A DNA stretch of 64,000 bases, from positions 252,556 through 316,555 of the forward strand of contig PKUO01000002.1 in assembly GCA_002869585.1 (NCBI GenBank), written 5' to 3'. Origin of the DNA: Sedimenticola sp. Lineage in GTDB: Bacteria > Pseudomonadota > Gammaproteobacteria > Chromatiales > Chromatiaceae. A program made the translations under genes and the position numbers. Numbering within the stretch: position 1 is the stretch's first letter; the number at the start of each line of letters is the position of its first letter. The notes below the pieces were generated by a model. That model did not search any database and was not told the DNA's origin. It saw only the letters and a list, made by a program, of their open reading frames with translations. Positions 47,522-64,000 of the stretch are shown in pieces.

Positions 47522-49462
47522 TTATTTGTTTTCGCGATTGTTGATCAGCTCATCCACTACGGTTGGATCCGCCAGGGTCGAGGTATCGCCCAGGGTATCG
47601 AGTTCGTTGCAGGCAACCTTGCGCAGGATACGACGCATGATTTTACCTGAACGGGTCTTCGGCAGTCCGGGTGCCCACTGGATGAGGTTGATCTTGGCGA
47701 TTGGACCGATCTCGGCGCGTACCAGATTGATCAACTCCTTCTTCAACTCATCGGTCGGTTCAACACCGGCCATCGGGGTGACATAGGCGTAGATGCCCTG
47801 TCCGGTGATTTCGTGGGGATAACCGACGACCGCCGCTTCAGCAACCTTGTCGTGCAGAACCAGGGCCGATTCGATTTCGGCTGTACCCAGCCGGTGGCCG
47901 GATACGTTCAGTACGTCATCGATACGCCCGGTGATCCAGTAGTAGCCATCGGCGTCACGGCGTGCGCCATCGCCGGTGAAGTAGGTGCCCGGATACTGGG
48001 AGAAATAGGTATCCCTGAAACGTTGATGATCGCCATAGAGGGTGCGCATCTGCGCGGGCCAGGGGCGGGTGATGACCAGTGCGCCTTCACACTCACCTTC
48101 CAGCTCTTCGCCGGTTGCGGCATCCACAATCGAGGGTACGACGCCGAAGAAGGGCCGTGAGGCCGAGCCCGGCTTGAGCGGGGTTGCGCCCGGCAGCGGG
48201 GTGATCAGATGACCGCCAGTCTCGGTCTGCCACCAGGTATCGACAATCGGGCAGCGTTCACCGCCGACCACCTTGTGGTACCACTCCCAGGCCTCTGGAT
48301 TGATCGGCTCACCCACCGAACCGAGCAGTCGCAGGCTGGAGAGGTCATGTTTTTTGACGGGCTCATCACCCACACGCATCAGTGCACGGATTGCGGTTGG
48401 TGCAGTATAGAAGGTGTTGACCTTGTGCTTTTCGCACACCGCCCAGAAACGCCCGGCATCCGGGTAGGTGGGGATGCCTTCGAACATCAGGCTGATGGCG
48501 CCGTTTGCCAGGGGGCCATAGACAATATAGGTATGGCCGGTCACCCAGCCCACATCGGCGGTACACCAGTAGATTTCCCCCTCTTTGTAATCGAAGGTGT
48601 ATTTGTGGGTCATGGCAGCGAACAGCAGGTAACCGCCGGTGGTATGCAGTACGCCCTTGGGTTTGCCGGTTGAGCCGGAGGTGTAGAGGATGAACAACGG
48701 GTCTTCGGCATCCATCTGTTCGGGTTCGCAAACGGCATCGGCAGTGGCCATTGCATCGTTGTAGTAGATGTCGCGGCCCTCTTTCCAATCAACCTTGCCG
48801 CCGGTGCGTTTCACCACCACGCAGGTATGCACATTCGGGCATGACTTCAGCGCGATATCGGCATTGGACTTGAGGGGGACATTCTTGCCGCCGCGAACCG
48901 ACTCGTCTGAGGTGATCAGGGTCTGACAGTCGGAGTCGAGAATACGGCTGGAGAGGGCGTCAGGCGAGAAACCGCCGAATACGATGGAATGGATGGCGCC
49001 GATGCGGGTACAGGCCAGCATGGCAACCGCTGCTTCGGGGACCATCGGCAGGTAGATGCAGACACGATCGCCCTTCTTCACGCCACGGGATTTCAGCACA
49101 TTGGCAAATTTACAGACATCCGCGTGCAGTTCACGATAGGTGATTTTTTTGTCTTCGTTGGGGTTGTCACTCTCCCAGATGATGGCCGTTTGATCGCCGC
49201 GCGTGTCCAGATGCCGGTCGAGACAGTTATAGGAGACATTCAGCTTGCCGCCGATGAACCACTTGATGTCGGCAGTGTGGTAATCCCATTCAGTAACCTT
49301 ATCCCACTTCTTGTTCCAGGTTACGAACTCCTCCGCCATGTCCGCCCAGAAACCATCGGGATCATCGACTGAGCGTTTGTACATCGCATCGTATTTTGCC
49401 GCATCAATGTGTGCATTCGCAGCGATGTCAGCTGGGACGGGATAGACCTTGTGTTCGGACAT
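47522..49462 (-). CDS. acs: Acetyl-CoA synthetase (AMP-forming)
   Basis: Activates acetate to acetyl-CoA via acetyl-AMP. The 646-residue protein has the AMP-binding loop [11 protein letters not shown], the acetate-pocket and adenylate motifs WWQTETGG and [31 protein letters not shown], and the C-terminal acetylatable lysine in [11 protein letters not shown]. The start is ATG 49462 with AAGGAGA upstream; the longer frame from 49495 is not supported. Acetate transporters and a sigma-54 two-component system lie in the next 15 kb, so the region forms an acetate-uptake and activation block. Confidence 0.97.
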
Positions 49463-49892
49463 GTTTTGTCTCCTTAATAGGTGTCTATTCGACAACAGGG
49501 TGGACTGTTGTCGGTCTTCACTTCAATTGATTTAGATATACCCGGTATCGGACCGGGGCTGCGGATTTTTATTGTTATCCGCCAGTTTCACACATTGCAT
49601 AGAAAGGCTGTTTCGCTCATAACACAGGCGATATTATAAAAACGAGGAATCACGAATAGAAATGCTGCCGGTCATCTCCACTCTGTTCCACCAGTATTTT
49701 TTGGTTCTCAGGCTCTGCGGGTGAATGCCCAGGCCGGCGCAAGAGAACACGCTGGTAAATGGCACCCCACAGAGTCGATCCGGTCGCCGATGCAGGGATG
49801 CCTGTTGTCTGCATGAACTGACCATTCTTACAGTTTCACAGGCATTGTCAATGACATTACGGTCGATTGGTTTGCCCGGTGTATTGGACGAC
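49463..49892. other. Intergenic region upstream of acs, no gene
   Basis: This 430-bp region has no convincing gene: the minus-strand frame 49634-49912 and the plus-strand frame 49725-49907 lack family features. It holds the acs leader hairpin (49490-49513) and a weaker CCCGGT...ACCGGG hairpin at 49541-49557. I did not find a sigma-54 promoter with correct GG-N10-GC spacing or a GTTACC-type site like those at the symporter operons. Confidence 0.5.
49490..49513 (-). promoter_or_regulatory. Perfect hairpin in the acs leader
   Basis: A 9-bp perfect inverted repeat (CGACAACAG / CTGTTGTCG) with a six-base loop, 28-51 bases before the acs start and upstream of its AAGGAGA ribosome site. It could be a transcript hairpin affecting translation or an operator. 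Confidence 0.55.
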
Positions 49893-51776: not shown

Positions 51777-51885
51777 TAATCTGCGACTGTGCCAAGGTGC
51801 TAAACTGCGTGATGTACAGAATCCCGGCGGCGATAGGTCTGGTTGCCATTTGTCTATTGCCATAGAGAATGAACAGGTTTCGCTG

Positions 51886-52053
51886 ATGATTGACTGGATA
51901 TTACTCCTGGTAACCGGCTTTATTGCCTATCATGCCCTGACCTTCCGGAATGAAGAGGGAGAGAATGACATCGGCCATCTGCTGTTCGGTGCAATCGCAT
52001 TGTTATTTTTCATGCGTGTCCTGTTTGTCGATATTCTTAAACTGGTCGGCTGA
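51886..52053 (+). CDS. Small membrane protein (55 aa), unknown function
   Basis: Starts MIDWILLLVTGFIAYHALTF and is predicted to form two membrane helices with a short acidic loop (RNEEGENDIGHL). It is divergently transcribed from the cNMP-CBS-DUF294 gene and convergent with the TPR gene. Similar tiny genes are often found with acetate symporters, but I cannot assign a role. Confidence 0.6.
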   Translation: MIDWILLLVTGFIAYHALTFRNEEGENDIGHLLFGAIALLFFMRVLFVDILKLVG

Positions 52054-53092: not shown

Positions 53093-55084
53093 TTAGCCAG
53101 GACGGTCAAAATCCATCTGGATGTCACCAATATCTTCATGCAGGGCTTCCACCTCTTTATTCGGAATGGTTGACATCTCCATCTTGTAAGCGAGAAACCA
53201 CATCATAAACACACCCAATGCCCACCAGACGATCTGCCAGGCCCAGATTGACGGGATACCGAACAGCCAGCTCTGGGCGTTGTTCGGATCGCCAAATATC
53301 CAGTTGCCGATGACCGCACCCGGACCTATGCCAAAGAAGAACCAGACAATGGTGATTATCAAGGCGATAGGCACCAGGCTCCTTTTGCTCTCTGGCAGCG
53401 AGGCGTGCTCGCGGAGAAAGTTATGGAAGGTCATGCGGTGTTCACGTTCGTTGTCATTCTGGGTCATGGCCGAGATGATGATGGCCAGGCTGAGATTGAA
53501 CAGGATGCCCCAGCCTGCAGAGTGTATGGTCAACGGCCAGCGTCCCCAGGGCATGAACTGGGCGCCGATATTTTCCGTCAGGGTGACGGCAATCAGACCG
53601 GCGATCAGACCTGCCACGACTCCCTGCCGGGTCAGGAAGGGCCACCAGCAGATGGCGATCAGGGCTGGCAACATCTGAAAGCCATAGGCAACCGCGAGAC
53701 CACCCAGCAACACCAGGGCGTCGGTGGCGGTTGTGGCGACGATCAGTGCTGCGATGACAATCACCGCCACGCCAATCCGGCCGTAGAGCTTCTGCTGCAT
53801 ATGGGTCGCCCGCGGCATGATAAAGCGCTTCAGTATGTCGCGGGTGAGCATGCCCCCGGCCGTGGACATGTAGGCCGCGCCGGTGGATTGCATGGCGGCC
53901 AGGGCGCAGACCGACAACAGGCCGACCAGCCAGGGCGCGGTGGCCGAGAGCAGATAGATCAGTTGCGGGACCAGCATATCCGGCTCGCTGGGGGATATCA
54001 GCAGATCGGTCGCCCCGATTTTTGCGAGCCCTTCCTGCATGACCGGATTGACCAGATCGGGATGTGCCGCGGCAAAGGCGCTGTCGGCACCCAGAAAGTG
54101 CGAACCTATGCCCTGAATCGCGGTAAACACCATCAGAATCAGGCCGATCCCCGCAGACGAGGCCCAGACCTGCTGTGGCGCGAAAGGCTCGGGGCTTTTG
54201 TTGCCGAAGGCCCACATGGAAAAGGCCGGTGCGGACTGTATGCCCATCAGGGCAAACATATAGGTGAGAATCATCATGCCGGTCCAGGCCCCGCCCGAGG
54301 GGTCTTCAACCCCGAGTCCGGAAACCAGCTGGATGGCGCCCGGTATGGCAATGTAGGCACTGTATCCGTCTGGCGTGGTCTCTCCGAAATAGGCAGTTCC
54401 GCTGTCCGGGTTGATGGCGGTCAGGGCGGCCAATCCCGCTTGCAACTGATCGAAACCGCCGATCGCGTGCATGGCGATAATACCGATGACCACTATGCCC
54501 CCCGCCAGCAGGATGGCCTGGGCGGAATCGACATAGGCCACAGCGCGCAGGCCACCGGAGGCAACGTAGATGATCACAACCAGCGACAAGAGCCACATGC
54601 CGACCTCGATGTCGAGCATGTTGTCGGTCAGGATGTTGAACAGGAAGCCCGAGGCGCGCAACTGGATGCCGAGATAGGGTACGGAAAATACCAGTGCGAC
54701 CAGCACCACCAGCAGGCGCACTGTATCGGATTTGAAATAGTAGGCCATCATTTCGCCAGGAGTGATGAAACCAAAGCGCTTGCCGAGCATCCACTGGCGT
54801 TTCAGGAAGACGACCCCGGTGAAGGGAATGGTTATGGCGTAAAAAGATGCATACGCGTATTGGAAGCCGTCACGGTAGATCAGGCCGGGATGTCCCATGA
54901 AGGTCCAGCCGGAAAAGGATGTCGCGGTGGCGGCCAGGATAAAAACCCAGAGCGAGATCTGTCGCCCAGCCACAAAATAGTCGCTCGCGGTCTTGGCGGA
55001 CAATGCGCCCTTGATGCCCCAGAAGATGCAGTACGTCCAGTAGAGAGCAACAAAAATGAACAACCAGACTACTTTTGCGTCCAT
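53093..55084 (-). CDS. Sodium:solute symporter (SSS/SLC5), probable acetate/monocarboxylate carrier
   Basis: A 663-residue transporter with about 13-14 membrane helices of the SLC5 fold (SDYFVAGRQISLWVFILAATATSFSGWTFMGHPGLIYRDG; AAMQSTGAAYMSTAGGMLTRDILKRF). It has an N-terminal periplasmic leader helix and a long C-terminal cytoplasmic tail. Substrate is inferred from family and neighbourhood (acs, second symporter) and is not proven. ATG 55084 is used: GGAGGT precedes it by about ten bases. It is expressed leftward from a candidate sigma-54 promoter at 55159-55173. Confidence 0.88.
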   Translation of the reverse strand: MDAKVVWLFIFVALYWTYCIFWGIKGALSAKTASDYFVAGRQISLWVFILAATATSFSGWTFMGHPGLIYRDGFQYAYASFYAITIPFTGVVFLKRQWMLGKRFGFITPGEMMAYYFKSDTVRLLVVLVALVFSVPYLGIQLRASGFLFNILTDNMLDIEVGMWLLSLVVIIYVASGGLRAVAYVDSAQAILLAGGIVVIGIIAMHAIGGFDQLQAGLAALTAINPDSGTAYFGETTPDGYSAYIAIPGAIQLVSGLGVEDPSGGAWTGMMILTYMFALMGIQSAPAFSMWAFGNKSPEPFAPQQVWASSAGIGLILMVFTAIQGIGSHFLGADSAFAAAHPDLVNPVMQEGLAKIGATDLLISPSEPDMLVPQLIYLLSATAPWLVGLLSVCALAAMQSTGAAYMSTAGGMLTRDILKRFIMPRATHMQQKLYGRIGVAVIVIAALIVATTATDALVLLGGLAVAYGFQMLPALIAICWWPFLTRQGVVAGLIAGLIAVTLTENIGAQFMPWGRWPLTIHSAGWGILFNLSLAIIISAMTQNDNEREHRMTFHNFLREHASLPESKRSLVPIALIITIVWFFFGIGPGAVIGNWIFGDPNNAQSWLFGIPSIWAWQIVWWALGVFMMWFLAYKMEMSTIPNKEVEALHEDIGDIQMDFDRPG

Positions 55085-55158
55085 GTTGAATGTGACCTCC
55101 GGCAATTGGGTTGGGCAGCGGTTCCAGGTCTGGCCAAATGGTTAACGGTGTGTAGTAT

Positions 55159-55173
55159 GCAAAAAATATACCG
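55159..55173 (-). promoter_or_regulatory. Candidate sigma-54 promoter for the minus-strand symporter
   Basis: Minus strand reads CGGTATATTTTTTGC: GG and GC are ten bases apart and TTGC is exact, but the bases after GG deviate from TGGCACG. It is about 75 bases upstream of the gene. The two palindromes 55240-55275 lie about 88 and 109 bp upstream of the -12 element, a typical activator distance. Confidence 0.6.
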
Positions 55174-55239
55174 CATGCAAATACTGAATAAAAACAATGC
55201 GTTAATTGCATATTACTGGCGGCGGGTTATAGGCTATTT

Positions 55240-55254
55240 GTTACCTTGGGTAAC
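55240..55254. promoter_or_regulatory. GTTACC-N3-GGTAAC palindrome (site A)
   Basis: Perfect 15-bp palindrome, upstream of the minus-strand symporter. Its centre is 21 bp from that of site B, about two helical turns, as for cooperatively binding dimers. Confidence 0.7.
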
Positions 55255-55260
55255 GTCTCT

Positions 55261-55275
55261 GTTTACAAAGGTAAC
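55261..55275. promoter_or_regulatory. GTTTAC-N3-GGTAAC palindrome (site B)
   Basis: One-base-changed copy of site A with AAA centre, 21 bp away. Together A and B look like a paired activator site. Confidence 0.65.
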
Positions 55276-55426
55276 GTATGCTGAACCTGGGTTCCGGTCA
55301 GTATCCGTTTTACGCCTGCCAGCGGTTGCTGAATCGAAGGCCATCGGGTTTATTTTAATGATCTGTGACCGGCATCCCGTTGATTGCCTGAGTGGTGGAG
55401 GATGCCATCTGTCGTTTGTTTCATTT

Positions 55427-55446
55427 GGTAACATATCGATGTTACC
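55427..55446. promoter_or_regulatory. GGTAAC-N8-GTTACC palindrome (site D)
   Basis: Perfect inverted repeat with the half-sites in the opposite arrangement to A-C. Its right half GTTACC begins 21 bp before the left half of site C. It lies about 130 bp upstream of the rightward sigma-54-like promoter. Confidence 0.65.
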
Positions 55447-55461
55447 GACTGGGGGCTTTTC

Positions 55462-55476
55462 GCTACCTTGGGTAAC
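55462..55476. promoter_or_regulatory. GCTACC-N3-GGTAAC palindrome (site C)
   Basis: One-base-changed copy of site A with the same TTG centre. It is about 98 bp upstream of the -12 element of the candidate rightward sigma-54 promoter. Confidence 0.65.
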
Positions 55477-55553
55477 AGTAAACGCCGGTAATAACCATCG
55501 GTGAATGTGTTAGTAGATTAAAGAACACTAATAAATCAAATAGTTAGGAATCT

Positions 55554-55568
55554 TGGCCCATTTTGTGC
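55554..55568 (+). promoter_or_regulatory. Candidate sigma-54 promoter for the DUF4212-symporter operon
   Basis: TGGCCCATTTTGTGC: TGGC, then GG and GC ten bases apart and TGC. It is close to TGGCACG-N4-TTGC and lies about 145 bp upstream of the DUF4212 gene. Confidence 0.68.
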
Positions 55569-55714
55569 GATATTAATCCGCGTTGTCCGGATATCAGCCT
55601 GGGTTTGGTTCGTGAAGGGGAGTTGTTGCACAAGAGGTGGCAGAGTGTGCAATAACAGGTGAGCGGCAGGTTCGGATTAGCAAACAATCACTCTAATAAG
55701 CTGGAGGACTTTTA

Positions 55715-55981
55715 ATGAGCACAGCACAAGATATGTCGGGACAAGCCTACTGGAAGGCTAATATCCGGCTAGTAACCATCCACCTGATTGTATGGGCCTT
55801 CGTGTCCTATTTCTGCGGCATACTCCTGCGTCCGATGCTTTCGGGAATCCCAATCGGTGGTACTGACCTCGGGTTCTGGTTCGCCCAGCAGGGTTCCATG
55901 TTTATATTCATTGCTCAGATCTTTATTTACGCTGCGCAGATGAACAAGCTGGACCGTCGATTTGACGTTCACGAAGACTAA
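55715..55981 (+). CDS. DUF4212 small symporter subunit
   Basis: An 88-residue protein with two membrane helices (LIVWAFVSYFCGILL and FWFAQQGSMFIFIAQIFIYAAQM), of the type that always precedes the VC_2705-type sodium:solute symporters and is thought to be their small subunit. A GGAGG ribosome site precedes ATG 55715. The large subunit starts 13 bases downstream. Confidence 0.92.
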   Translation: MSTAQDMSGQAYWKANIRLVTIHLIVWAFVSYFCGILLRPMLSGIPIGGTDLGFWFAQQGSMFIFIAQIFIYAAQMNKLDRRFDVHED

Positions 55982-55993
55982 GGGGTCAAATAA

Positions 55994-57724
55994 ATGGATC
56001 TGCAAACTTTAACGTACATTGTTGTGGGTGCTACCTTTGCGCTCTACATTGGTATTGCCATCTGGGCGCGAGCTGGTACGACAGGTGAATTCTATGCCGC
56101 GGGTCGCGGTATTCACCCGGTTGCCAATGGTATGGCAACGGCAGCTGACTGGATGTCCGCCGCCTCTTTCATCTCCATGGCGGGCCTTATCGCCTTCATG
56201 GGCTACGACGCCTCTATCTTCCTGATGGGCTGGACCGGCGGATACGTTCTGCTGGCCATGCTGCTGGCGCCTTATCTGCGTAAGTTCGGTAAGTTCACCG
56301 TGCCGGAGTTCATTGGGGATCGCTACTACTCGCAGACGGCGCGTATCGTGGCTGTCATCTGTCTGATCGTCGCTTCACTGACCTATGTAATCGGTCAGAT
56401 GAAGGGTATCGGCGTGGCATTCTCCCGCTTCCTGGAGCTGGATTACGAGACAGGTCTCTACACGGGTATGGTTATCGTGTTTTTCTACGCCGTTCTTGGC
56501 GGCATGAAGGGTATCACCTACACCCAGATCGCTCAGTACTGCGTCCTGATTTTCGCCTACACCATCCCGGCGATCTTCATCTCGTTGCAGTTGACCGATA
56601 ACCCGATTCCGCAGCTGGGTCTGTGGGGCAATCTGGAAGATGGCACACCCTTGCTGCAGAAGCTGGATATGACCCTGGTCGATCTGGGCTTTGGCGAGTA
56701 CACGGCACAGAAGGGCGGCACACTGAATATGGTGCTTTACACCTTCTCGCTGATGCTCGGTACGGCAGGTCTGCCACACGTTATCATCCGCTTCTTCACC
56801 GTACCCAAGGTACGTGACGCCCGTTACTCTGCAGGTTGGGCGCTGGTGTTCATCGGTATCCTCTACACCACTGCACCGGCGGTTGGCTCCATGGCCTTCT
56901 ACAACCTGGCAAAAACAGTACAGCCTGGTCCAGTAGCCGAGGCAGATGGCGCGCTCTCCTATGAGCAACGTCCACAGTGGTTCAAGAACTGGGAGACTAC
57001 CGGTCTGCTGACCTTTGAAGACAAGAATGGCGACGGCCGTATCCAGTATCGCAAAGGCGACGCCAACGAGTTGAAAGTTGACCGTGACATCATGGTATTG
57101 GCCAATCCTGAAATCGCCAAACTGCCTAACTGGGTGATTGCACTGGTAGCAGCAGGCGGTCTTGCTGCGGCGCTGTCAACAGCGGCCGGATTGTTGCTTG
57201 CCATTTCGTCATCCATTTCGCATGATCTGTTGAAGGGTATGTTCGCCAAGGGCATCTCGGAGAAAGGCGAACTGCTGGCTGCGCGTGTGGCCATGGCAGG
57301 TGCGATCGTGGTGGCCGGTTACTTCGGTCTGCATCCACCAGGATTCGCGGCACAGGTGGTGGCATTGGCCTTCGGTCTGGCGGCATCGTCGATCTTCCCG
57401 GCCTTGATGATGGGTATCTTCAACAAGCGGGTAAACAATGTGGGCGCTGTAGTCGGTATGTTGGTTGGTTTGAGTGCTACCCTGGTGTATATCTTCACCT
57501 ACAAGGGCTGGTTCTTCATTCCGGGTACCAACACTCTGCCCAACACTGCCGATAACTGGTTCCTGGGTATCTCTCCAGAGGCCTTCGGTGCAGTGGGTGC
57601 CATGTTGAACTTCGCCTCTGCGATCATCGTTTCCAAGATGACTGCCGAGCCTCCGGAGCACATCCAGCACCTGGTCGAAGACATCCGCGTACCCAAGGGT
57701 GCGGGTGGTGCGGTTGACCACTAA
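55994..57724 (+). CDS. Sodium:solute symporter, VC_2705-type (acetate permease ActP-like)
   Basis: A 576-residue SLC5-family carrier with about 13 membrane helices. It starts MDLQTLTYIVVGATFALYIGIAIWARAGTTGEFYAAGRG and contains GMATAADWMSAASFISMAGL and ALSTAAGLLLAISSSISHDLLKGM, typical ActP features. A hydrophilic insert at about residues 315-375 is characteristic of this subfamily. With DUF4212 it forms a two-gene operon ending in a strong terminator. Acetate as substrate is supported by acs and the regulatory genes nearby. Confidence 0.92.
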   Translation: MDLQTLTYIVVGATFALYIGIAIWARAGTTGEFYAAGRGIHPVANGMATAADWMSAASFISMAGLIAFMGYDASIFLMGWTGGYVLLAMLLAPYLRKFGKFTVPEFIGDRYYSQTARIVAVICLIVASLTYVIGQMKGIGVAFSRFLELDYETGLYTGMVIVFFYAVLGGMKGITYTQIAQYCVLIFAYTIPAIFISLQLTDNPIPQLGLWGNLEDGTPLLQKLDMTLVDLGFGEYTAQKGGTLNMVLYTFSLMLGTAGLPHVIIRFFTVPKVRDARYSAGWALVFIGILYTTAPAVGSMAFYNLAKTVQPGPVAEADGALSYEQRPQWFKNWETTGLLTFEDKNGDGRIQYRKGDANELKVDRDIMVLANPEIAKLPNWVIALVAAGGLAAALSTAAGLLLAISSSISHDLLKGMFAKGISEKGELLAARVAMAGAIVVAGYFGLHPPGFAAQVVALAFGLAASSIFPALMMGIFNKRVNNVGAVVGMLVGLSATLVYIFTYKGWFFIPGTNTLPNTADNWFLGISPEAFGAVGAMLNFASAIIVSKMTAEPPEHIQHLVEDIRVPKGAGGAVDH

Positions 57725-57828: not shown

Positions 57829-59688
57829 ATGGATATTGAACTACTAGAGATCAGGGATTTTCTTGCAGCCCACCATCCCTTCGATCAGTTGCCAACGGAT
57901 GCCCTCAGCGCACTACCGGCAAAACTGCAGATTCGTTATTTCAGGCGTGACTCAACCATTCCCGAGAGCGGGAATCTGAACAATGATCTCTACCTGGTGA
58001 GAACCGGGGCTGTGGAACTGCGGGATACCGAAGGCGAACTGCTAGCGCGTCTGGGGGAGGGTGATGTGTGCGGCTATCGCACCTCATCCTATGATGAACT
58101 GGCGGAACACCATGGGAGTGCGATCGAGGATACGCTGATCTACCAGTTACCGGCCAAGGAGGTCGATGATCTCTGCCTGCGCTATCCGCCGTTCGCCTAT
58201 TTTTTCGTATCCGAGGGCGGCAACCGCCGGCGCGATGCCTTTTCCAATATCGGACAGGCGGACAGTGCCCAGGTCAACCAGATGACGGTGCCGATTGGCG
58301 ATATCATCCACAAGGCGCCGATCAGCATGCCACCTACGGCGACCATCCGTGAAACCGCCGAGGTGATGAGTAACGAGCGGGTCTCGTCGATATTGATCGC
58401 CGATGCCGGAGGCGCCCTGCTGGGAATAGTGACCGACCGGGATTTGCGCGGCAGGGTGGTTGCCAAGGCCCTTGATTACAACCTCCCCATTGCCGAAATC
58501 ATGACCCGTTCACCGCTCACGGTGGATATTGACGACTATGCCTTCGAGGCGCAGTTGATGATGGCCCGGCAGAACATCCATCATCTGCCGGTCATGAACG
58601 GCGAGCGTGTGGCCGGCATGTTGACCGCCACCGATCTGACCAAGCATCACACCACCTCGGCGGTTTACCTTGTGAGTGATATTTTCAAGCAGACGCAAAT
58701 CGAGAGTCTGCAGGAGATCAGCGCCAAGGTGCCGCAGCTTCTGCTCAGTCTCGCCAGCGCGGAGGCCACAGCCGATAGCGCCGGGCATGTAATTACCGCA
58801 GTGACCGACGCCATTACCACGCGCCTGTTACAACTCGCCGAGCAGAAGCTTGGGGCGCCGCCAGTCCCTTACGCCTGGATAGCTGCGGGTTCCCAGGCGC
58901 GCAATGAGCAGACCGCAAAATCGGATCAGGATAACTGCATGATCATCGACGACGGTTACGATGAAAAACTCCATGGCGAATATTTCCGCGAACTGGCCCG
59001 TTTTGTCTGCGATGGACTGGATGCCTGTGGGTATATCTATTGCCCGGGTGAGATGATGGCGATCACCGATCAGTGGCGACAACCGTTAAAGACCTGGAAG
59101 CGCTATTTCCACAAGTGGATCGAGCAGCCTGAACCCAAGGCCCTGATGCTGACCTGCGTGTTTTTTGACCTGCGCTGTATCTATGGCGAAAAAAATCTGT
59201 TTCGCGATATCCGGGAATATCTGTTACAAAAGACCCGAGGCAACCGGATATTTCTCGCCTATATGGCGGGTAATGCCTTGTCCCATCAACCGCCCCTGGG
59301 CTTTTTTCGCAACTTTGTGCTGATCAAGGGTGGGGAGCATGATCACACCTTCGATATGAAACATACCGGCATAGTGCCGATTGTCGACCTGGCCCGGGTC
59401 TACGCGCTGGCCGCCGGCAGTGAGGCGGTGAATACCCTGAGTCGCCTGGAGGCTGTCGCTGAAGGTGGTGAGGTTTCGGAAAACGGCGCAAGAGACCTGC
59501 GCGATGCCCTGGAGTTTGTCAGCGCCATTCGGATCGAGCATCAGGCAAAACAGATTCGCGCCGGCCTGAAGGCGGATAATTTCATGTCACCCGATGATCT
59601 CTCCCATTTCGAACGTAATCAGCTGAAAGATGCCTTTGCGGTGGTGCGCACCATGCAGAACGTGCTCAGCCAGCGCTATCAACGGTAG
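57829..59688 (+). CDS. cNMP-binding / CBS-pair / DUF294 nucleotidyltransferase-like protein (second copy)
   Basis: A 619-residue protein with the same order as the gene at 49893-51776: cNMP-binding-like domain (about 15-125), two CBS motifs (about 155-275), and a DUF294 nucleotidyltransferase with GSQARNEQTAKSDQDNC plus C-terminal helices. Such genes commonly follow DUF4212-symporter pairs. Sequence identity between the two copies looks moderate, so they are old paralogues rather than a recent duplication. The exonuclease gene follows after eight bases. Confidence 0.9.
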   Translation: MDIELLEIRDFLAAHHPFDQLPTDALSALPAKLQIRYFRRDSTIPESGNLNNDLYLVRTGAVELRDTEGELLARLGEGDVCGYRTSSYDELAEHHGSAIEDTLIYQLPAKEVDDLCLRYPPFAYFFVSEGGNRRRDAFSNIGQADSAQVNQMTVPIGDIIHKAPISMPPTATIRETAEVMSNERVSSILIADAGGALLGIVTDRDLRGRVVAKALDYNLPIAEIMTRSPLTVDIDDYAFEAQLMMARQNIHHLPVMNGERVAGMLTATDLTKHHTTSAVYLVSDIFKQTQIESLQEISAKVPQLLLSLASAEATADSAGHVITAVTDAITTRLLQLAEQKLGAPPVPYAWIAAGSQARNEQTAKSDQDNCMIIDDGYDEKLHGEYFRELARFVCDGLDACGYIYCPGEMMAITDQWRQPLKTWKRYFHKWIEQPEPKALMLTCVFFDLRCIYGEKNLFRDIREYLLQKTRGNRIFLAYMAGNALSHQPPLGFFRNFVLIKGGEHDHTFDMKHTGIVPIVDLARVYALAAGSEAVNTLSRLEAVAEGGEVSENGARDLRDALEFVSAIRIEHQAKQIRAGLKADNFMSPDDLSHFERNQLKDAFAVVRTMQNVLSQRYQR

Positions 59689-59696
59689 AACTGAAT

Positions 59697-60395
59697 ATGT
59701 CGATCTGGAAATACCTGTTCAACCTGGAAGAGCGACGCAACTGGTGGATGCGCAAAATGCCGGACTGCCCGCTGCGGGATTACTACGAAGTGGATTTTCC
59801 CGATAAGGACTCCGATTGGCGGCAGGTGGACTATATCGCGGTCGATTACGAAACCACCGGACTGGATCAGAAGAATGACCAGATCCTCAGTATCGGTTAC
59901 ACCACGGTGCGTGGTTCAAGAATCTACCTGGATGAGGCGGTGCATATCCTGACCAAGCCCACAGTGGATATCCCCGAGTCCTCGGCGGTGGTGCACGGCA
60001 TTCTCGATGATCAGGCGGCGCGCGCCAAACCCATTGAAGAGGCGCTGCCGATATTGTTGTCAGCGCTGGCCGGCAAGGTGATGCTTGCCCATCATGCCGC
60101 TATCGAGTACCACTTTCTCAGCAACGCCTGTAGATATCTCTACGGCTACCCGTTTATTGGTCCGGTAGTGGATACGCTGGCCCTGGAGGTGCGTTCGTTT
60201 CGAAACCGCGACAAGGCCATTCAGGCGGGAGATCTGCGACTGGCCGCCGCACGAGCGCGTTATGGACTGCCGCGCTACCCGGCGCACAATGCCTTGACCG
60301 ACGCTATCGCGGCAGGTGAATTGTTCCTGGCCCAGGTGGCCTACCGGGAAGGTAAACGGCAACCGAGGCTGAAGGACCTGACGGTCATCAGCTGA
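59697..60395 (+). CDS. 3'-5' exonuclease, DnaQ-like DEDDh family
   Basis: A 232-residue protein. The DEDDh motifs are DYETTGLD (Asp-x-Glu), the Exo II region around MLAHHAAIEYHFL and HNALTDAIA (His-x4-Asp). It resembles the PolC/DnaQ epsilon-like exonucleases that accompany cNMP-CBS-DUF294 genes. Translation is probably coupled to the preceding gene. The biological link between this nuclease and acetate transport is not known. Confidence 0.88.
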   Translation: MSIWKYLFNLEERRNWWMRKMPDCPLRDYYEVDFPDKDSDWRQVDYIAVDYETTGLDQKNDQILSIGYTTVRGSRIYLDEAVHILTKPTVDIPESSAVVHGILDDQAARAKPIEEALPILLSALAGKVMLAHHAAIEYHFLSNACRYLYGYPFIGPVVDTLALEVRSFRNRDKAIQAGDLRLAAARARYGLPRYPAHNALTDAIAAGELFLAQVAYREGKRQPRLKDLTVIS

Positions 60396-61237: not shown

Positions 61238-62581
61238 CTATATTTTTTTTGCCCGGGGTATGCCAAGCCGTTGCCGTCGTTCCCATAGCGCCTTACGGCT
61301 GATACCCAGTTTCTTGGCCAGTTCGGTTTCCGTCATTGCATCCTGGTTGGCGATCAGAAACTGGCAGAAATACTCCTCGAGCGACAGATCCTGGGCGGTG
61401 GATTGGAGGCTTTGGTCGGGGTACTGGGGACCGTTGTCTATCGCCAGCAGGTCTGGGGTGATCAGATTGTTTTCACACAGGATGACGGCCCGCTCCAGTG
61501 CATTTTCCAGTTCCCGGACATTGCCTGGCCAGTCATAGGAGGTAATGGCCTTGATGGCATCGGCTGAGAGTTCGATTGGCGGTCGATTGAGCTGAACCCG
61601 CGCCTTCTCCAGCAGAAACCGGGCCAGATCGACGATATCCTTCTCGCGATCACGCAGCGGTGGCAGATTGAGCTCGACCACCCTGAGGCGGAAATAGAGA
61701 TCGCTTCTGAACAGACTTTCCTGCACCAGTTGTTTAAGGTCCCGGTGGGTGGCCGCAATGAGGCGGATATCGACATGTCTTGATTTTTCCGATCCCAGTG
61801 GGCGTATCTCCCCGTTCTGCAATACCCGCAAGAGCCTGGCCTGCGCGGCGAGGGGTAGCTCACCGATCTCATCGAGAAACAACGTGCCGCCATCGGCCGC
61901 CTCGACCAGCCCGGTGCGGGTTGAATCAGCCCCGGTGAAGGCGCCTTTCAGGTGACCGAAGAGTTCTGATTCAATCAGGGGCTCAGGAATGGCGGCGCAG
62001 TTGACGGTGACGATCGGGGCGTCTTTTCGCGTGCTCTGTTCGTGCAGGGCGCGGGCGACCAGCTCTTTGCCGGTCCCTGATTCACCGAGTATCAGAACGG
62101 TGCTGTCGGTCGGGGCCACCTTGCCGATGCGCTTGAATACCTCCTGCATCGCCTGACAGCTGCCGATAATGCCCCGCACAGGGTAGACCTTGTCCATTTC
62201 GGATTTGAGGACTTCGCTTTTTCTCTCCAGTTGTTGTTGGCGCAGGGCACGTTCCACCAGCAGCAGGAGTTCATCGTGATCGAAGGGTTTGGCAATGTAA
62301 TCAATGGCGCCCTGTTTGATTGAATCAACTGCGGATCGCACACTGGCATAGCTGGTCATCACCAGCACCGGTATGTTCGGCGCCTTTTTGATGACCTCGG
62401 TCCCCGGCGCGCCGGGTAAACGGATATCGGTGAGGATCAGGTTGAAGCTGTTCAGGGAATATGTCTGCTCTGCCTCTTCCACGGAAGCGGCCTCGGATAC
62501 ATCGTAATCCTTGCGTTGCAGCAGGCGTTTCACCGCGCCGCGGATTACCTCTTCGTCTTCGATGATCAGTATTTTATTCAT
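61238..62581 (-). CDS. Sigma-54-dependent response regulator (NtrC/CbrB type)
   Basis: A 447-residue activator. The receiver has IIEDEEV and phospho-Asp in LTDIRLPGAPGTEV; the AAA+ domain has GESGTGKE, the exact sigma-54 loop GAFTGA, and TLFLDEIGELPL; the C-terminal Fis-type HTH is TETELAKKLGISRKALWERR. The start ATG 62581 overlaps the stop of the kinase gene by eight bases, so both are co-translated. Given the sigma-54-like promoters upstream of both symporter operons, this is the obvious candidate regulator. CbrB is an analogue by position, not proven orthology. Confidence 0.93.
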   Translation of the reverse strand: MNKILIIEDEEVIRGAVKRLLQRKDYDVSEAASVEEAEQTYSLNSFNLILTDIRLPGAPGTEVIKKAPNIPVLVMTSYASVRSAVDSIKQGAIDYIAKPFDHDELLLLVERALRQQQLERKSEVLKSEMDKVYPVRGIIGSCQAMQEVFKRIGKVAPTDSTVLILGESGTGKELVARALHEQSTRKDAPIVTVNCAAIPEPLIESELFGHLKGAFTGADSTRTGLVEAADGGTLFLDEIGELPLAAQARLLRVLQNGEIRPLGSEKSRHVDIRLIAATHRDLKQLVQESLFRSDLYFRLRVVELNLPPLRDREKDIVDLARFLLEKARVQLNRPPIELSADAIKAITSYDWPGNVRELENALERAVILCENNLITPDLLAIDNGPQYPDQSLQSTAQDLSLEEYFCQFLIANQDAMTETELAKKLGISRKALWERRQRLGIPRAKKI

Positions 62582-64000
62582 GCGTGCTCTGTGTTTGATT
62601 GTGGGGCAACTTGATGATGATGCGTGTCCCAACATTGGGTGCCGAGTCGATCTCGATTTCGCCCTTGTGATCCTCGATGATCTTGTAAACCATGGAGAGC
62701 CCCAGGCCGGTTCCCTTGCCAGGGTCTTTGGTGGTGAAAAAGGGTTCGAATACCGCCTCCTGCACCTCTTTGGGAATGCCTTCACCTTGGTCCATCACTT
62801 CCAGCTGGACGCTGCCGTTGTTGGCAAAGGCAAAGATTTCAACCCGATCCCCCGGTTTTGAGGCGTCGCAGGCATTGGTCAGAAGGTTGACCAGTACCTG
62901 TGACAGACGCTGGCGATCGCCCACCAGCTGGATGCTGCCGGTGCAGCCGTTGTGGCAGCTGACCTGCTTGCCGGCCTGGGTCAGCTTGACCAGCTGGATT
63001 GCCTCCTGAATGATCTCGTTTAGTTCAAATGACTTGAAATCCGCACCCACGCTGCCGCTACGGCTGAAGTTCATCAGCGACTGCACGATGCTGCTGATCC
63101 GCTTGGTCTGCTGCAGTATGGCTTCGATGCTCTCACTGACAATGGCCGGGTCGGGCTCCTCTCGCAGATTCTGGGCGAGGGAGGCGATGCCGGTGACCGG
63201 GTTGCCGATCTCGTGGGCGACACCGGCGGCCAGACGGCCGATGGAGGCGAGACGATCACTGTGCGCCAGCTCCGCCTCAAGGGTTTCCAGGTCGGTCAGA
63301 TCCTCCAGCAGAATCACCAGGCCGGTGCGTGCACCGGGGTCGTGGAGCGTCAGATCGGGATCGGGCAGGTTCGCCTTGTGCAGGTTATACCAACGTGGCT
63401 TGGTATCGACACTCACCTCCATGTGATGGATATGCTGGTCCTGTACGGCGGCAAAGCCTGCCAACAGCTGGCTCCAGGGCTCCGGCAGGGTGTTCAGTTT
63501 CTTTCCCAGCGCCTGGTGGGCACCCAGGTTACTCATGGTTTCCAACGCCCGGTTCCAGATGACCACGGTCTGATCCGGGGCTATAGCGCAGACACCGAGG
63601 GGCAGATCGAGCAGGATCTGACGGTGATAACGGCGCAGCACATCCAGATCCGCATTCAGGCCACGCAGCCGGCTGCGAGACTCCTCCAGACGGTCTTCCA
63701 TGTAGCGGATGGAATCCGCCAGGGCGGTTTTTGACTGGCTGTCGATCTGCAGTTGCTGGTTGATGATCATGTGCGCCATGTGGGGGCCGACCAGTCCCGA
63801 CAGATTGCGTTCTATGCGATCGCGCAGCCGGCGCAGCTCCCTCGGGCGGGTTTCGTCGTAGCCCAGATTCAGATCCACGAGCGCCTGGTTGACCTCCAAC
63901 TCCGCCGCTTCCGGTCCGACCATGGCGGCCAACCCCTCAGCGAACTGGGCGGGTGAACCGGCAGCCACCACACCGTCCAGGGGGACCGGGATGGTGGCGT
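62574..64000 (-). CDS. Sensor histidine kinase (N terminus outside window)
   Basis: The frame stays open to the window edge. The visible 475 codons hold a helical linker (RRLRDRIERNLSGLVGPHMAHMI), a PAS-like domain (LLDLPLGVCAIAPDQTVVIWNRALE), HisKA with phospho-His in GVAHEIGNPVTGIASLA, and the HATPase domain with DQGEGIP and GTGLGLSMVYKI. In CbrA and CrbS the part before this is an SLC5-type sodium symporter domain; the linker and the acetate context make that likely, but it is not seen. Its cognate regulator follows with an eight-base overlap. Confidence 0.9.
   Translation of the reverse strand, partial: ATIPVPLDGVVAAGSPAQFAEGLAAMVGPEAAELEVNQALVDLNLGYDETRPRELRRLRDRIERNLSGLVGPHMAHMIINQQLQIDSQSKTALADSIRYMEDRLEESRSRLRGLNADLDVLRRYHRQILLDLPLGVCAIAPDQTVVIWNRALETMSNLGAHQALGKKLNTLPEPWSQLLAGFAAVQDQHIHHMEVSVDTKPRWYNLHKANLPDPDLTLHDPGARTGLVILLEDLTDLETLEAELAHSDRLASIGRLAAGVAHEIGNPVTGIASLAQNLREEPDPAIVSESIEAILQQTKRISSIVQSLMNFSRSGSVGADFKSFELNEIIQEAIQLVKLTQAGKQVSCHNGCTGSIQLVGDRQRLSQVLVNLLTNACDASKPGDRVEIFAFANNGSVQLEVMDQGEGIPKEVQEAVFEPFFTTKDPGKGTGLGLSMVYKIIEDHKGEIEIDSAPNVGTRIIIKLPHNQTQSTHE

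Follow-up and report, generated by a model that had tools for sequence, protein, structure and literature searches.

The CbrA-CbrB two-component system has been described as unique to the Pseudomonadaceae, and what CbrA senses is given as an open question in the same review (PMC8871633). In P. aeruginosa, CbrAB is reported to act on acsA via CrcZ and Crc, and cbrB mutants to grow poorly on acetate (available extract of PMC3480352). For P. putida, the accessible portion of one paper describes CbrB subsites TGTTAC/GTAACA, 20-25 bp apart, together with IHF and sigma-54, and stresses that these subsites are non-palindromic (PMC6296734); an extract of another gives an overlap of 17 nt between cbrX and cbrA (PMC6591292). 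Histidine is the published CbrA ligand, according to the available part of a cryo-EM preprint (PMC13022988). CbrA/CbrB homologues are listed in a sulfur-oxidizing gammaproteobacterium (PMC4136832) and cbrAB transcripts are reported in seawater (PMC5073097), in both cases going by extracts of the papers, and searches of the open-licence literature, one of them dominated by taxon names, returned no CbrB regulon or sites outside the Pseudomonadaceae. Two other systems, as portrayed in partial texts, are comparable. In CrbS/CrbR (MxtR/ErdR), a transporter-fused kinase controls acs and an acetate symporter (PMC5715377, PMC9100948), CrbS being a hybrid kinase and CrbR a LuxR-type regulator (PMC9100948). 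In RpuS/RpuR of Sinorhizobium, an SLC5-STAC kinase adjoins the symporter operon under its control (PMC9100948).

In this study, we have explored a control region within a stretch of 64 kb (the window; C85:252556-316555 of genome G000) and its counterparts in related bacteria. Based on our results, we consider it highly likely that two sigma-54 promoters stand back to back here, each served by a CbrB enhancer of its own, for CbrA-CbrB-driven carboxylate uptake; the switches between the two uptake operons are very probably thrown by CbrA-CbrB. The initial annotation had placed the region between two symporter operons, and this is what we find, with the lone SSF gene starting leftward at 55084 and the DUF4212/SSF pair rightward at 55715. 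The features are as follows.

47522-49495, minus strand: acetyl-CoA synthetase gene acs (domain search)
53093-55084, minus strand: SSF-family symporter gene ("lone SSF"), the leftward target (ORF list, PF00474)
55158-55173, minus strand: leftward sigma-54-like -24/-12 element CGGTATATTTTTTGCA (GG-N10-GC)
55195-55207, minus strand: possible IHF site AATTAACGCATTG, weak, one mismatch to WATCAANNNNTTR
55240-55254: site A, perfect GTTACC-N3-GGTAAC, GTTACCTTGGGTAAC
55261-55275: site B, GTTTACAAAGGTAAC, whose GGTAAC half supplies the leftward composite with its distal GTTACC
55427-55446: site C, GGTAAC-N8-GTTACC (GGTAAC 55427-55432, GTTACC 55441-55446)
55462-55476: site D, GCTACC-N3-GGTAAC, GCTACCTTGGGTAAC
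55534-55546, plus strand: IHF-like site AATCAAATAGTTA, full match to WATCAANNNNTTR, candidate by consensus
55554-55569, plus strand: rightward sigma-54-like element TGGCCCATTTTGTGCG (GG-N10-GC), identical in the relative L037
55715-55981, plus strand: DUF4212 symporter small subunit (TIGR03647)
55994-57724, plus strand: VC_2705-family SSF large subunit (TIGR03648, 853 bits)
57829-59688, plus strand: cNMP/CBS/DUF294 protein (domain search)
59697-60395, plus strand: DnaQ-type 3'-5' exonuclease (PF00929)
61238-62581, minus strand: CbrB orthologue, an NtrC-type response regulator (domains, homology, tree)
62574-64000, minus strand: CbrA orthologue, C-terminal part (Pfam, alignment with the CbrA of genome G259)

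The start of the lone SSF gene was taken as 55084, where the ORF list puts 55105; the profile searches for this gene, in which TIGR00813 scored below its cut-off, used the stretch from 55063. The cNMP/CBS/DUF294 gene at 57829-59688 is probably part of the rightward operon, and the CbrA gene (983 aa) extends past the window end to contig position 318080. WATCAANNNNTTR, against which both IHF candidates (55195-55207 and 55534-55546) were read, is what we take to be the IHF consensus. A possible 55-aa ORF also lies on the plus strand at about 51880-52047 (coordinates approximate), between a DUF294 gene and a TPR-like gene.

The half-site array is confirmed as real: six exact GTTACC/GGTAAC half-sites lie in 55106-55714, as compared to a shuffle mean of 0.40 (maximum 3 in 1000 shuffles). 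The initial annotation saw four palindromes in two pairs; the sites are present, but they are not four equal palindromes: more precisely, each promoter has a unit of three ordered half-sites, and there is one extra half-site. Read toward its own promoter, each side carries the composite GTTACC-N15-GYTACC-N3-GGTAAC: leftward, GTTACC (55275-55270), N15 and GTTACC-CAA-GGTAAC (55254-55240), followed by CGGTATATTTTTTGCA; rightward, GTTACC (55441-55446, in site C), N15 and GCTACC-TTG-GGTAAC (55462-55476), followed by TGGCCCATTTTGTGCG. The half-site order of site C is also found in L037, a close relative. The two composites score 18/18 and 17/18, and a score of at least 17 on either strand was reached in 0 of 1000 dinucleotide shuffles of 55106-55714, by a definition made after seeing the sites, for which relatives provide the further test. 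The spacings given earlier (21 bp; 88-109 and 98-130 bp) come out correctly when site centres and the -12 end are taken as reference points. A genome scan for GTTACC-N3-GGTAAC, also proposed in that annotation, showed no enrichment of the bare 15-bp palindrome (at most one mismatch), with 10 places versus 11 for a reversed-pattern control, and it was rejected as a genome-wide marker. Three of the 10 places are nonetheless A, D and a site at cbrX; five of the other seven lie inside ORFs (L003-L006, L010), and L002 and L007 lie outside ORFs of at least 120 aa with no evident target.

As all the sites lie within 240 bp of one another, and sigma-54 enhancers work at a distance and in either orientation, A/B and C/D could form one shared enhancer from which CbrB serves either promoter by looping. 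We find this unlikely, since relatives in which the operons are separated (L055; L162/L201 in G083; L154/L199 in G046) keep a site at each of them, so that each promoter seems self-sufficient, and since the mirror-image layout occurs, among the loci read, only here and in L037.

The second part of our investigation concerns the regulator. The protein encoded at 61238-62581 has REC and AAA+ domains (Pfam), Asp52, a GAFTGA loop and the recognition helix SRKALWERRQ, in a helix-turn-helix (HTH) that was read from the sequence and has no Pfam HTH match. It is 62% identical (542.7 bits; 58% by tblastn) to the response regulator beside crcZ in G259, a genome that we call Pseudomonas-type on the strength of its CrcZ; the next best response regulator of G259 and the next paralogue within the window's own genome both stand at 41%. 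In a tree of 71 proteins, a 99/99 branch splits 63 CbrB from 8 paralogues, with the G259 protein nested among CbrB from other families; according to a warning of the tool, the long branches of the paralogues may be attached falsely to the CbrB side. The SRKxLW helix is present in 63/63 CbrB and 0/8 paralogues, two of which stop before the HTH. Judged by identity and clade, the regulator is a CbrB orthologue. The initial annotation's regulator gene with the GAFTGA loop is thereby confirmed as an NtrC-type response regulator of the CbrB clade, and the resemblance to CbrB sites noted there is borne out by this orthology and by half-sites that match the G259 crcZ promoter. Asp52 of CbrB is the phosphorylation site according to the available part of PMC7918813.

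In G259, cbrB adjoins crcZ, and CrcZ exceeds the Rfam threshold in this genome only among 185 sampled genomes of the class (306.8 bits). In its crcZ promoter, half-site cores lie at -150 (TGTTACC), -130 (GTAACA) and -107 (GGTAAC), followed by TGGCACGACAACTGCT at -27, which fits the subsites published for P. putida. The sites of the window thus look like CbrB sites, with half-sites common to the crcZ promoter. The order of half-sites (F forward, R reverse) is F-F-R here versus F-R-R in G259, and the promoter-proximal pair here forms a 15-bp palindrome. In the window's genome, RF01675 (CrcZ) gave no match under strict filters, and a CrcZ-like RNA in L001 or L011 was rejected, none being found by Rfam. 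Because there is no crcZ match downstream of cbrB, we read this CbrB as an orthologue with a predicted output different from that of the Pseudomonas circuit.

Turning to the promoters, the two divergent GG-N10-GC elements with NtrC-type sites upstream, as first annotated, hold at the level of sequence, with moderate matches (17.3 leftward and 17.8 rightward of 21.5, on an ad hoc score). The start of the last half-site lies 72 bp from the leftward and 83 bp from the rightward element; the former fits the 67-72 bp seen in 15 of 16 lone-SSF promoters of relatives, and the latter is close to L037 (82 bp), which keeps the elements of both window promoters. Promoter positions relative to a lone-SSF gene were counted from its codon 8. 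When promoters with a composite score of at least 14 were compared (lower-scoring ones being omitted), a sigma-54-like element that beats shuffles (p<=0.05) was present in 24 of 37, divided into 16/17 lone-SSF and 8/20 DUF4212 promoters. The other 12 DUF4212 promoters had no significant element in the 110 bp tested, and a wider look at 12 DUF4212 promoters gave one clear candidate, the others being weak or overlapping a half-site. Six DUF4212 promoters of genus g4 (L138, L139, L140, L143, L145, L149) have composites and no clear sigma-54-like element, each with an extra GTAAC 117-149 bp before the gene; these may be sigma-70 promoters. Based on this difference between classes, sigma-54 use appears well supported at lone-SSF promoters and plausible at both promoters of the window, and it is not universal among relatives. 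A generic TGGCAC scan of the window was uninformative (268 matches versus 313 expected).

These relatives with strong composites and no sigma-54-like element are also an argument for promoters that are wholly or partly sigma-70, on which CbrB would bind as an ordinary activator or repressor and GG-N10-GC would be chance or a relic. The conserved operator before cbrX points the same way, since 18 bp from the gene leaves too little distance for an enhancer. Such a reading is improbable for the window, given the constant 67-72 bp at the lone-SSF promoters, the retention of both elements in L037, and the GAFTGA loop of CbrB, which is needed for sigma-54 contact.

We also asked how the sites are distributed in relation to CbrB. 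From 68 fetched loci related to the lone SSF gene, 37 (in 36 genomes) were chosen by hand (lone SSF identity of about 60% or more, enough upstream DNA) and searched for CbrB, which is present in 15/36 genomes and absent in 21; the 15 include one partial protein (L027, genome G295; 66% over residues 2-235), counted as CbrB-positive. By automatic count, at least two GTTAC/GTAAC cores occur within 400 bp upstream of the lone SSF in 15/16 CbrB-positive versus 2/21 CbrB-negative loci, and an exact GTTACC/GGTAAC in 14/16 versus 0/21, with three CbrB-negative loci having an exact half-site between 400 and 700 bp upstream. The CbrB-negative set spans distant genomes and also L015, L019, L023, L024 and L051, whose SSF is 75-79% identical. 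By eye, the half-site array is present in 14/15 CbrB-positive genomes, the exception being L020 (G289). In L020, cbrXAB adjoins the lone SSF gene, yet neither CbrB-type sites nor a good sigma-54-like element is present there; an altered DNA-binding helix as the reason was not seen (SRKALWEK versus SRKALWER here).

A sequence model made from 19 composites (R1) was then run on 99 genomes of the family; it leaves out L085 (a duplicate of L017) as well as L018, L027, L047 and the lone-SSF promoter of L055 (scores below 15), and the two locus sets share genomes (L017=G086, L012=G080, L026=G224, with identical match positions). At E<=1, R1 matches 44/44 CbrB-positive versus 9/55 CbrB-negative genomes (Fisher 1.7e-19, which ignores kinship). 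The best E is below the best CbrB-negative value (0.163) in 34/44 CbrB-positive genomes, the matches of the other 10 being only as weak as those of CbrB-negative genomes. Without the seven genomes that supplied training sequences, 37/37 match, 27 of them below 0.163. In genus g3, the one CbrB-positive genome (G082) matches and six CbrB-negative genomes do not. Binding of the palindromes by another regulator, be it an NtrC-type paralogue or an unrelated dimer, could be suspected from the many NtrC-like proteins of the window's genome (17 scored matches among 76 candidates) and is very hard to credit when R1 matches and lone-SSF half-site cores both follow CbrB, the G259 crcZ promoter has the same half-sites, and SRKxLW is found in none of the eight paralogue rows (two ending before the HTH).

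The predicted regulon is compact. Best-match loci were fetched for 30 of the 44 CbrB-positive genomes, and 29/30 best R1 matches lie upstream of a symporter, cbrXA, acs or DUF294-type gene (lone SSF 7, DUF4212-SSF 16, cbrXA 4, acs 1, DUF294-type 1), with one in a coding region; the match of L148 is inside an ORF resembling ribosomal protein L3 (named by eye). In G052, acs comes after cbrB; half-site cores occur there in three places, and CGGCACAAATATCGCA lies about 69 bp past the last of them. The acs of the window's genome has no detected site, and 0/5 R1 matches of this genome are at acs. A weak match there on contig C103 (E 0.14; L151:1008-1125), with TGTTAC, TGTTACC and GGTAACA about 22 bp apart and then AGGCATATTTATTGCT, would be this genome's third promoter of the CbrB type. 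The gene downstream encodes a periplasmic binding protein (PF13458) like those of urea/branched-chain amino-acid ABC transporters. Genes of this kind have an upstream R1 match in L198 (with a strong sigma-54-like element), L202 and L197 (site 0.8 kb from the gene, without such an element), and in L177 a 68% identical binding-protein homologue follows cbrB, with half-sites and TGGCACGATAATCGC. Another weak match of the window's genome, on C58, was rejected as lying inside an ORF. Among 20 further weak R1 matches chosen from the list, 8 are at regulon genes (L197-L202, L206, L214) and 12 are off them, 9 of the 12 inside ORFs of at least 150 aa.

The kinase gene adjoins cbrB. CbrA has PAS, HisKA and HATPase domains and no receiver (REC) domain by Pfam, and its N-terminus gave no score with the Pfam SSF model at E<=0.001; assignment of its SLC5 part is based on alignment over the full length with the G259 CbrA (52%). 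No second such kinase was found in the window's genome at E<=1e-40. The pocket residues Y51, W55, F71, Y75, K196 and F406, taken from the available text of the cryo-EM preprint (PMC13022988), are kept in 12/12 CbrA compared. As the pocket keeps these six and changes S53 to T, A56 to S/T and F248 to A/S, the ligand here may or may not be histidine. cbrX (66 aa) precedes cbrA with an overlap of 11 nt; in G259, it has 58 aa and the overlap is 17 nt, as published for P. putida. In the window's genome, a single palindrome (L011 13291-13305) lies 1.7 kb past the window end and 18 bp before cbrX. Leaving G259 aside, such a palindrome is found upstream of cbrX in 12/14 cbrXA loci that have a close CbrA, being absent in L020 and L155, and it starts 33 bp before the predicted ATG in 10 loci and 34 or 36 bp in two. 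This is probably a feedback operator for cbrXA, and its closeness to cbrX suggests repression.

We infer, from sequence features, the CbrB binding, CbrA phosphorylation, sigma-54 use, IHF, substrate and feedback sign of the following model. CbrA, a transporter-kinase fusion, would phosphorylate CbrB, which would bind and assemble on GTTACC-N15-GYTACC-N3-GGTAAC, some 70-85 bp ahead of each -24/-12 element. CbrB, perhaps with bending by IHF, would then drive open-complex formation by sigma-54 RNA polymerase, turning on monocarboxylate uptake, most likely of acetate, via the two symporter operons. Elsewhere in the genome, CbrB would also turn on an ABC uptake system, and cbrXA is probably under feedback control through the single palindrome that lies 18 bp before cbrX.

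Across the class, 369 genomes were sampled, and 37 of them, from 23 families, have a CbrB match (E<=1e-120). A kinase adjoins cbrB in 27/27 wider-class loci (L166-L192), and 15/27 have acs, DUF294 (24-37% identity), lone SSF or DUF4212 no more than 1.5 kb downstream. Since CbrB orthologues and candidate sites occur in other families, the description "unique to Pseudomonadaceae" needs revising, the sequences placing cbrAB in many other gammaproteobacteria. R1 matches 8/27 of these loci (0/8 control loci) and gives no match at the G259 crcZ promoter, where the site grammar differs, and we therefore regard the composite as a family feature. In L187 (G496), whose CbrB groups in the tree as sister to that of G259, half-sites and TGGCACAGGGTCTGC follow cbrB. 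Also in L187, about 260-940 after cbrB, lie some 680 nt in which no ORF reaches 90 aa, followed by a pcnB-like gene (by eye); this stretch may be a divergent CrcZ, or a CrcZ analogue, missed by the Rfam model.

In the light of these examples, CbrAB outside Pseudomonas appears to act directly on the genes by which acetate-like carbon sources are taken up and activated. Sites are found right at the symporter genes and, in one relative, at acs, so the connection with acetate physiology may be an old one that is wired differently here. We lean, with some reserve, towards CbrAB as an old gammaproteobacterial system that originally combined direct sigma-54 activation of uptake and activation genes for monocarboxylates (acetate) and amides/amino acids with cbrXA feedback; CrcZ-Crc would be a later rewiring in Pseudomonas, an sRNA replacing the neighbouring symporter, acs or DUF294 gene behind the CbrB enhancer. 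This hints at a route from a direct metabolic switch to a global one that works through an sRNA. The regulon of the window's family, being compact and easy to read, also allows the question of what CbrA senses to be approached by comparison: its symporters and acs point to carboxylates, whereas the published ligand is histidine.

In conclusion, like CrbS/CrbR, the locus encodes a transporter-fused kinase system linked to acs and symporter genes; unlike CrbS/CrbR, it has an NtrC-type regulator, which led us to reject a CrbR-type explanation, and a kinase without a receiver domain in Pfam. Like RpuS/RpuR of Sinorhizobium, it sets a predicted SLC5-STAC kinase beside a symporter operon that it would control, whereas that system has a LuxR-type regulator, a direct repeat and pyruvate. 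The closest counterpart is CbrXAB of Pseudomonas/Azotobacter, with which it has in common CbrB (62%), CbrA (52%), an overlapping cbrX, TGTTAC/GTAACA half-sites and a sigma-54-like element downstream of them. It differs from CbrXAB in having no CrcZ found, sites that adjoin acs and the genes for symporters, DUF294 proteins and ABC transporters, a 15-bp palindrome in F-F-R order, a conserved operator before cbrX, and pocket changes. What is new is a CbrAB system beyond the Pseudomonadaceae with a predicted direct uptake regulon, without CrcZ, and with a putative operator 33 bp before cbrX.
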